Assembly: GCF_014191425.1 (NCBI RefSeq)
Contig: NZ_JACHWP010000002.1
Location: forward strand, 186,001 to 250,000
From: Helcobacillus massiliensis
GTDB taxonomy: Bacteria > Actinomycetota > Actinomycetes > Actinomycetales > Dermabacteraceae
Length of the DNA stretch: 64,000 bases
Direction of reading: 5' to 3'
Part shown: one piece after another, positions 52,665-56,662 of the stretch
How positions within the stretch are numbered: position 1 is the stretch's first letter
How the letters are laid out: each line of letters starts with the position of its first letter
Program-made: the position numbers and the translations under genes
The notes under the pieces: model-generated
What the model was told of the DNA's origin: nothing
The model's input: the letters and a program-made list of their open reading frames with translations, nothing else
Database searches by the model: none

Positions 52665-53699
52665 ATGACCAACGCTGCACCGGCCATCACTGTCCGACCG
52701 ATCGATCCTGACACCGCCGGCACTGACGCCGCCCGCGAGGCCTGCGCCCGCGTCGCACGACTGAGCGCCGGCTCGCACACCATCGACGTCACCGAGAGCC
52801 TCAACAAGTTCGAATCCCGCCACCACACGATGTTCGTGTACGCCGGCGATGCCCCGGAGGTCGCGGACGAAGCGTCGATCCAGGCGGGACCGGACCCCGT
52901 CGGCTGGGCGATCGCGCAGGACCGCGCGGCCGGTCGCATCAACGCGGTGTGGGCCATCGATCCGACGCACCCGTCGGCCGACGCGGTCGCCGACGTCATG
53001 GTGCAGTGGCTGATGCAGACCGCCGGGGAGATCTCCGCGGAGCGCGGCCTCGCCGAGTCGATGCTGGTGGCGGAGGTCGAGGCTGAGCACGCGGTGCGCA
53101 TGGCAGCACTGGAGCGCGCGGGGTTCGAGAAGGTCCGCACCTGGCTGACCATGCAGATCCCGCTGAGCCCCGCTGCGACCACCGAGTCCGAGCGGGACGA
53201 CCCGCGCTACGCCGCCACGAACACCGCCGATTCGGGCGACCTCGTGATCCGCACGGTCGAGTCGCAGGAGGACAAGGAGGAGCTGCACCGGGTCCTCGAG
53301 CTCGCGTTCCGCGATCACTTCAACTACTACCGGGAGACGTTCGAGGAGTTCGAGGAGCGGGTCGAGATGCTCGCCGGCCACGCATGGGACCTCGATTTCG
53401 TTGCGGAGCACCCGGAGCGCGGCATCGTCGGCGCCCTCATCACGGGGTCCTCGGCCGACGGGACCACGGCGCACGCCGAATACCTCGGGGTCAGCGGGGA
53501 CGCGCGCGGCCTCGGCGCCGCTTCCAGCCTGCTGACCGTGTTCCAGGAGACGTACCGCGCCGCCGGGTTCACCACCGCAGAGCTGCAGGTCGATGCCGAC
53601 TCCCCCACCGGCGCCGACAAGCTGTACCGCAAGCTCGGCTACACCCCGACCGCGCAGCAGTTCACCTACCACCATCCCGTGTCAGCGCCGCAGGGCTGA
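52665..53699 (+). CDS. Tandem GNAT acetyltransferase
   Basis: The 344-residue protein has two GNAT domains. The N-terminal one (about 5-165) is divergent. The C-terminal one (about 185-335) shows IRTVESQEDKEELHRVLELAF, AEYLGVSGDARGLGAASSLL (acetyl-CoA binding signature, R/Q-x-x-G-x-G/A type) and LYRKLGYTPTAQQF. The tandem layout resembles mycothiol synthase MshD and related enzymes. The substrate is uncertain. The ATG at 52665 is preceded by TGGAG. There is a long open frame upstream without homology. Confidence 0.75.
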   Translation: MTNAAPAITVRPIDPDTAGTDAAREACARVARLSAGSHTIDVTESLNKFESRHHTMFVYAGDAPEVADEASIQAGPDPVGWAIAQDRAAGRINAVWAIDPTHPSADAVADVMVQWLMQTAGEISAERGLAESMLVAEVEAEHAVRMAALERAGFEKVRTWLTMQIPLSPAATTESERDDPRYAATNTADSGDLVIRTVESQEDKEELHRVLELAFRDHFNYYRETFEEFEERVEMLAGHAWDLDFVAEHPERGIVGALITGSSADGTTAHAEYLGVSGDARGLGAASSLLTVFQETYRAAGFTTAELQVDADSPTGADKLYRKLGYTPTAQQFTYHHPVSAPQG

Positions 53700-53725
53700 G
53701 GGCGGCGGCCCCCTTTCCGCGTTGC

Positions 53726-53771
53726 ATGCGTTTCAGCGCGCTCGATCGTGAACGAGTGCGCTGAAACGCAT
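53726..53771. repeat. 46-bp palindromic repeat, copy A
   Basis: Arms ATGCGTTTCAGCGC / GCGCTGAAACGCAT (14 bp, perfect) continue after one mismatch into CTCG/CGAG. It is followed by GGAACCGGGG. The same element in the same orientation recurs at 54897. It lies between convergent genes and could also end transcription. Confidence 0.8.
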
Positions 53772-53811
53772 GGAACCGGGGTCGCCCGGCGCCGGGCCCC
53801 TGACGGGCCGG

Positions 53812-54891
53812 TCACGCCGCTTCGAGCGCGCGTCGCACCAGCGCCACCGCCGGGCTGTTCGCGAGTGCCGCTCGGACCTGGTCGTCGGACGCATGCAACC
53901 GCGGCGCAGGCAGGTGATCTCGGAACAGACGCAGCACCGTGAAACCGAGCGCCTGCAGGTCCAGCGCCCGATCCTGATCATGGACTGCACGGTCGCTGGT
54001 GAAGTGCGGCTGCCCGTCGTACGCCACGAGCAGCCGAGCGTGTCGCCACAGAAAATCCGGTTGGAACAGCCACCGGCCGCCTGCCCCTCTCAGGACCGGG
54101 TTCAGCTCCGGCTCATCCAGCCTGCCGAAGTGGCAACCGAGCCGGCACCGCGTCTCCTGGGGCGAGTCCGACCCGACCCGCGTCAACGCCAGCGCCGACC
54201 GCGCAGCGGCGATCCCATGCTGGCGTACTCGGGACTCCACTGCGGCACGCAGATCCTCCACGGACGCATACGGCAGCGCCCGACGCTCCAGTCCCCGCCG
54301 CGGATGCCGAACCAGATGATCCGCAATGACGACCCGCGCATCCAGCGGAAGCATGGGACAGGGATCCAGCCACGTGTCCACCCGGGACGCCAGCACCACC
54401 CGGCCCGACACGAACGCGGTCCCGATGTCCACACGGCGATGGCTCCATGACACGAGACCGCTGTCCCGCCGGCGCGTGCCCGCCGGCGCGTTCAGGTGGA
54501 TCGGCTGGCCGACCTGCCAGGTCTGCAGCTCCCGCGGCAGCGGCAACCGGTGAATGCGCGCCGCCGTCGGTCCCGTGATCGCCGCTCCCGGGTAGTGCTC
54601 GACCACCGCACTCGCGAGCATCGATTCGGTGACCTCGATGTCGCGGTGCGCATAGAAGCCGCATCCGAGTGACCGCAGGTCCACGGCCTTCACCCGGTGG
54701 GGGCCGAGGCCGTGCGCCTCGGCATCGGACCGGTGGAACACGCGGTGGGCGAGGGTGGGCGGCAGCGGGGGCAGAGCGGATCGACATGTCCACAGCCTCG
54801 CCGGTCCCCGGCGGCCGGCCGACGGGCTCCGCGGATGTGGGGACGGCTGGGGGTGTGGACAAACGGCGCCAGCACAATGGGCCGGCGGCAC
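53812..54891 (-). CDS. AbiEi-like/DUF559-type nuclease-domain protein
   Basis: The maximal frame is 359 residues from a GTG at 54891. The first 50 residues are Pro/Ser/Arg-rich and probably not translated; a GTG at 54741 (VFHRSDAEAHGLG) fits better with relatives. An AbiEi-like winged-helix part (about 50-190) has ITGPTAARIHRLPLP. A C-terminal endonuclease-like fold (DUF559/Vsr type) has QPDFLWRHARLLVAYDGQPHF and LGFTVLRLFRD. The Asp in PDF and the YDG motif are the probable active-site residues. It could act in defence or as half of a toxin-antitoxin pair. It is flanked on both sides by copies of the same 46-bp palindrome. Confidence 0.7.
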   Translation of the reverse strand: MPPAHCAGAVCPHPQPSPHPRSPSAGRRGPARLWTCRSALPPLPPTLAHRVFHRSDAEAHGLGPHRVKAVDLRSLGCGFYAHRDIEVTESMLASAVVEHYPGAAITGPTAARIHRLPLPRELQTWQVGQPIHLNAPAGTRRRDSGLVSWSHRRVDIGTAFVSGRVVLASRVDTWLDPCPMLPLDARVVIADHLVRHPRRGLERRALPYASVEDLRAAVESRVRQHGIAAARSALALTRVGSDSPQETRCRLGCHFGRLDEPELNPVLRGAGGRWLFQPDFLWRHARLLVAYDGQPHFTSDRAVHDQDRALDLQALGFTVLRLFRDHLPAPRLHASDDQVRAALANSPAVALVRRALEAA

Positions 54892-54896
54892 GGTTA

Positions 54897-54942
54897 ATGC
54901 GTTTCAGCGCCCTCGATCGGAATCAAGAGCGCTGAAACGCAT
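54897..54942. repeat. 46-bp palindromic repeat, copy B
   Basis: Arms ATGCGTTTCAGCGC / GCGCTGAAACGCAT are identical to copy A at 53726. The centre differs (CTCGAT/ATCAAG around CGGA) but still pairs. It is followed by the same GGAACCGGGG. It lies between the nuclease-like gene start and the guaA stop. Confidence 0.8.

Positions 54943-56662
<1,720 letters not shown>

Follow-up and report, generated by a model that had tools for sequence, protein, structure and literature searches.

A lineage-private set of nine palindromes at gene 3' ends, two of which frame a nuclease-like gene, in Helcobacillus massiliensis

Described palindromic repeats and the pair in the window

The attC sites of integron cassettes are imperfect palindromes with a variable centre that lie beside genes, and their ends have the consensus polarity RYYYAAC ... 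GTTRRRY. REP elements are short, dispersed, intergenic, asymmetric and species-specific palindromes, and the uniformity of their arms in each genome has been proposed to arise via Y1 transposases (PMC3733652, PMC2817692). Stem-loops concentrate at bacterial gene 3' ends generally, and some of them form repeat families (Petrillo et al. 2006, PMC1590033). In mycobacteria, terminators without a U-tract have been described soon after stop codons, although such hairpin termination in actinobacteria is disputed in work that the same paper cites (PMC12288462).

We analysed a window, that is, the whole stretch of 64,000 nucleotides at C2:186001-250000 of the 2.6-Mb draft genome of Helcobacillus massiliensis (28 contigs), whose gene content and relatives point to Dermabacteraceae. 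A first-pass annotation of the window had described two palindromes in the same orientation, with identical arms and trailing sequence, at 53726 and 54897, and sequence comparison confirmed them. They lie among the following features:

52665-53699, plus strand, GNAT acetyltransferase gene, with its start deduced from the translation; in relatives its 3' end faces that of guaA
53726-53771, plus strand, palindrome copy 1, 46 bp with 14-bp arms and an 18-nt centre
53812-54891, minus strand, nuclease-like gene with a C-terminal DUF559 domain
54897-54942, plus strand, palindrome copy 2, in the same orientation as copy 1, 46 bp with 14-bp arms and an 18-nt centre
55028-56662, minus strand, guaA (GMP synthase), followed directly by a different long palindrome in many relatives

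The 14-bp arms of the two copies are identical (ATGCGTTTCAGCGC/GCGCTGAAACGCAT), and the right-hand flank, GGAACCGGGG, is also the same, with GGAACC on the same side in both. When its paired flanks are included, copy 1 reaches about 53716-53781. It lies 26 nt downstream of the stop codon of GNAT, and 40 nt separate it from the 3' end of the nuclease gene, which is convergent. Copy 2 is located 85 nt downstream of the stop codon of guaA, a minus-strand gene, and upstream of the nuclease gene.

The palindrome family, its gene contexts and its folding

As had been noted, the window holds no third copy; the genome beyond it adds five intact and two decayed ones. The arm search gave seven intact copies in the genome, and a covariance model built from these seven recovered all of them together with two decayed copies (C3:41282-41347 and C4:51384-51449), a total of nine, with the next match at E 1.3. 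Copies 1 and 2 each scored about 1e-18 with this model, partly by construction because both are contained in it. The arm pattern read backwards had no match in the genome. When the intact copies were aligned in one orientation, GGAACC stood on one side in all of them and GTTG on the opposite side in most, and pairing of GTT with AAC lengthens the stem beyond a small internal loop. The mean difference between copies was 1.7% in the arms versus 50.5% in the centres, and the centres are often still paired, including G-U pairs on one strand. The centre halves of the seven intact copies fall into about two types, YCTYGATC and YCATTCC, which are variously combined as if halves had been exchanged.

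An uptake-sequence type of repeat, in which arms occur alone, was rejected, as arm matches with one mismatch all lie within the intact or decayed palindromes except C7:13612. A phage or plasmid origin was likewise set aside, similar DNA not being found. The search of known RNA families gave a single weak, sub-threshold match inside guaA, a GTDB search with the palindrome returned nothing, and in the literature we found no report of such palindrome families in this group of bacteria.

Every one of the nine copies follows the 3' end of a gene, in most cases at 23-111 nt from its stop codon; five are convergent, four are tandem, and none is divergent or inside a gene. The neighbouring genes are given below, with names read from translations except those of GNAT, guaA and the nuclease gene, for which Pfam was used:

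after GNAT/nuclease, convergent
after guaA, tandem
after purQ, tandem
after CobW-like/siderophore-interacting protein, convergent
after glycosyltransferase/L31, convergent, decayed
after DUF456, tandem
after ABC permease/aminotransferase, convergent, decayed
after a reductase, tandem
after phosphopantetheinyl transferase/CPBP, convergent

Three close pairs take in six of the nine copies, namely the window pair, C4:49211/51384 and C3:41282/43992, with spacings of 1.2, 2.2 and 2.7 kb, for which the simulated chance was 3e-5 in a post hoc calculation. Between the copies of each pair lie one or two short transcription units, and the contents are unrelated (the nuclease gene, a divergent L31...CobW pair and an ABC transporter). 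The centres of the C4 pair are 89% alike. The close pairing may reflect a duplication in place, gene conversion or a cassette-like process. In the pair at C3:41282-44047, the bracketed L31-type ribosomal protein gene cluster is divergent from the CobW-like gene and resembles a zinc-limitation module, the CobW part of which is missing in the four nearest-looking relatives (genus g6).

When we compared the folding of the window copies with that of shuffled sequences, the z values were -5.8 to -9.8 on either strand, and none of 200 shuffles matched the hairpin stability. Copy 1 folds with -48.8 kcal/mol on the plus (GNAT) strand versus -42.9 kcal/mol on the other, and copy 2 with -41.4 kcal/mol on the minus (guaA) strand versus -35.3 kcal/mol on the other. 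The strand of the upstream gene was the stabler one for three of the four tandem copies (guaA, purQ and the reductase), and for the DUF456 copy the wrong strand was stabler by 2.7 kcal/mol. As in an intrinsic terminator, a stable hairpin stands shortly after the stop codon; the U-tract that would follow the stem is missing behind the window hairpins, and no T-run flanks any copy. The mycobacterial 'I-shaped' intrinsic terminators (PMC12288462) also place a strong hairpin close behind the stop codon and have no U-tract, as here in a high-GC actinobacterium, but the present copies have their arm sequence in common and mostly stand 23-111 nt from the stop codon, and their terminating role is putative. 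The stem-loop families of Petrillo et al. (2006, PMC1590033) are similarly stable, located at 3' ends and in convergent spaces, and in some cases repeated, whereas their sequences and taxa are different, and in our case each tested species has its own family at the guaA end.

From these comparisons, we think it fairly probable that the palindromes form a small family of hairpins that is private to this lineage and dispersed between genes, most likely ending transcription or defining or protecting mRNA 3' ends, with which the nuclease gene does not travel. The suggestion builds on direct observations, i.e., the copy number, the contexts, the folding, the absence of linkage with nuclease genes, and other private families with one copy after guaA in relatives. 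Transcribed at gene ends, each palindrome would fold into a highly stable, U-tract-less hairpin of ~20 base pairs, which would most likely stop transcription, or set and protect the mRNA 3' end. Copy 1 would serve GNAT, and possibly the nuclease gene from the opposite side, while copy 2 would serve guaA. The nuclease gene would be bracketed because it is placed between two gene 3' ends, each with a hairpin, in a junction of variable gene content. A REP-type element recruited as terminator on both sides, which was one of the two proposals of the first-pass annotation, fits with nine copies after unrelated genes, all at 3' ends, as far as position is concerned; the terminating activity itself is something we infer. 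The family presumably spread or was homogenised within the lineage. Several points speak against the terminator reading. The stems lack a U-tract, termination by U-less hairpins is disputed for actinobacteria, and the DUF456 copy is stabler on the wrong strand. A terminator needs no fixed sequence, yet the arms differ by 1.7% and the centres by 50%; near-constant arms around variable centres point to selection acting on the arms, or to the arms being copied. In a relative, G009, at least one copy of that genome's own palindrome family may lie between divergent genes.

The nuclease-like gene, the GNAT-guaA junction and rival explanations

The protein encoded between the palindromes had been described as AbiEi-like plus DUF559. 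The DUF559 part stood, with a match above the Pfam cut-off at the C-terminus, while for the AbiEi-like N-terminus AbiEi_4 matched below the cut-off and in relatives only. The true start of the gene is uncertain because relatives align only from about residue 42. Such relatives are common in the bacterial family, often with several per genome. When ten members were aligned, the window protein had Ala, and one other Gln, in place of the Glu of the V-E-Y-D-G-x-x-H motif; judging from this replacement, the window nuclease may be catalytically dead. NCBIfam gave no match for the protein and the PDB a single weak one, a small endonuclease-like protein, and a GTDB search with the nuclease returned nothing. 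A known defence system was rejected as well, since PADLOC gave no match. In the tree, the window nuclease is nearest to a paralogue of its own genome at C4:89843 (support 98/86). Palindrome arms are absent within 8 kb around this paralogue (C4:86-94 kb) and within 4 kb around a partial paralogue on C27 (C27:1-4 kb).

In the relatives examined, the 3' ends of GNAT and guaA face each other, separated by other DNA or by little, and the gap ranges from 96 bp to 16.6 kb (39 regions). Its contents differ by species: by our reading, G008 carries an acetyl-CoA synthetase-like gene there, and G010 a pair of transposase genes. The nuclease gene is absent from the junction in nearly all relatives; only G007 has a relative of it there, in the same orientation and ~37% identical, and the palindrome at that junction differs and stands on the guaA side only, so that there is no flanking pair. 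A single junction nuclease inherited jointly with G007 was rejected, since the window gene groups with the C4 paralogue and the grouping with G007 was marginally rejected (AU p 0.04). Family-level junctions without the nuclease gene carry other palindromes or none, and other genes at the junction also vary in presence without window-type palindromes. The varied contents suggest a place where genes come and go, and from the sequences compared the junction looks like one where this happens independently of window-type palindromes.

The other proposal of the first-pass annotation was that a nuclease gene moves with its palindromes. A unit of this kind, or direct palindrome pairs that bound modules exchanged by recombination in a somewhat integron-like way, would agree with the concentration of copies in close pairs, the direct orientation of the window pair, the missing nuclease gene at the junction in nearly all relatives, and the DUF456 neighbourhood and L31-CobW module, whose neighbours differ from those in relatives. 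We nevertheless regard it as very improbable. The pairs bracket unrelated contents, and five of the nine copies are singletons or paired solely with decayed ones, all of which suit plain 3'-end positions. The seven copies outside the window border no nuclease gene, no nuclease paralogue is flanked, and the G007 junction and the tree offer no support either. A cassette travelling with its own palindromes was rejected because no further copy is near a nuclease gene, and the link of palindrome and nuclease, which had been called unusual, looks coincidental. Integron attC sites were rejected on their polarity: the palindrome ends read GTT ... AAC on either strand, the reverse of attC, and unlike cassettes in an array the copies are scattered, with varying contents and orientations. 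It had also been reasoned that many copies beside unrelated genes, with a nuclease gene constant in its presence, would indicate plain terminators; the nine copies are indeed scattered in this manner, but the nuclease gene does vary at the junction, as do other genes.

Single palindromes may instead transpose as non-autonomous REP/MITE-like elements that prefer gene ends and use a transposase in trans, with the terminator role being secondary. In line with this, the families of four lineages are multi-copy, dispersed and lineage-private, with an asymmetric end (GGAACC), and REP families are likewise species-specific (PMC3733652, PMC2817692). The family does consist of dispersed, multi-copy, short intergenic palindromes, but with nine copies versus hundreds, and its near-invariant arms enclose a variable centre; a GTAG or CGTC tag at one end is not seen, the conserved ends being GTTG-N and GGAACC. 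The Y1/RAYT transposase (PF01797) had no match in the 99.9% complete genome, while control genomes responded, and a RAYT-type REPtron was rejected on this result. Moreover, after recent transposition the centres should resemble each other as closely as the arms do, and they do not; we consider this explanation unlikely. Finally, the palindromes could be sites that a DNA-binding or recombination protein recognises by their sequence, the hairpin being incidental; near-invariant arms, a variable centre and an invariant one-sided GGAACC do resemble a recognition site. This appears highly improbable when all copies lie at gene 3' ends, none lies between divergent genes, and pairing is often kept in the centres, with G-U pairs on one strand. 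Hairpins of gene 3' ends remain our preferred reading.

Palindrome families at the guaA end in related species

Many relatives have a long perfect hairpin with other arms just after guaA, and the window arms occur in none of 57 relatives. When we searched the guaA-end arms of three relatives in 47 genomes of the bacterial family, TGTGAGCTGGGGACC formed palindromes six times in G009 and once, at guaA, in each of G035 and G064; GTGGAGGATTTCGT formed four in G007 and occurred as a lone stray arm in two further species; and GCAGATGATGCGCTATTA gave 21 sites in G023 and none elsewhere. The post-guaA palindrome thus belongs to a dispersed, essentially lineage-private family in four of four lineages tested (that of the window and three others), which are not a random sample because the three relatives were picked for conspicuous hairpins.

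The claimed mobile nuclease cassette gives way here to a general pattern, species-private long-hairpin families at gene ends in this actinobacterial family. Tentatively, each species of the family might keep a private "dialect" of long 3'-end palindromes, typically including the guaA end, with arms that are uniform per genome and replaced wholesale between species; we hold this to be possible, though rather doubtful. If so, it would call for a fast-evolving sequence-specific partner (a termination, RNA-processing or mobilising factor), or for a copying mechanism that homogenises arms and not centres. The feature in the window is real and ordinary in kind, and what deserves to be followed is the species-private turnover of palindromes at the guaA end: with a different family per lineage tested, the guaA site is a natural comparison for how repeated palindromes spread and change together, and for whether they end transcription without U-tracts. 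As a further observation, the palindrome of G023, absent from the 46 other genomes of the family, is near-perfect over 52 bp (GGGACTAATAGCGCATCATCTGCCATATATGGC...), and one of its 21 sites lies between guaA and GNAT.
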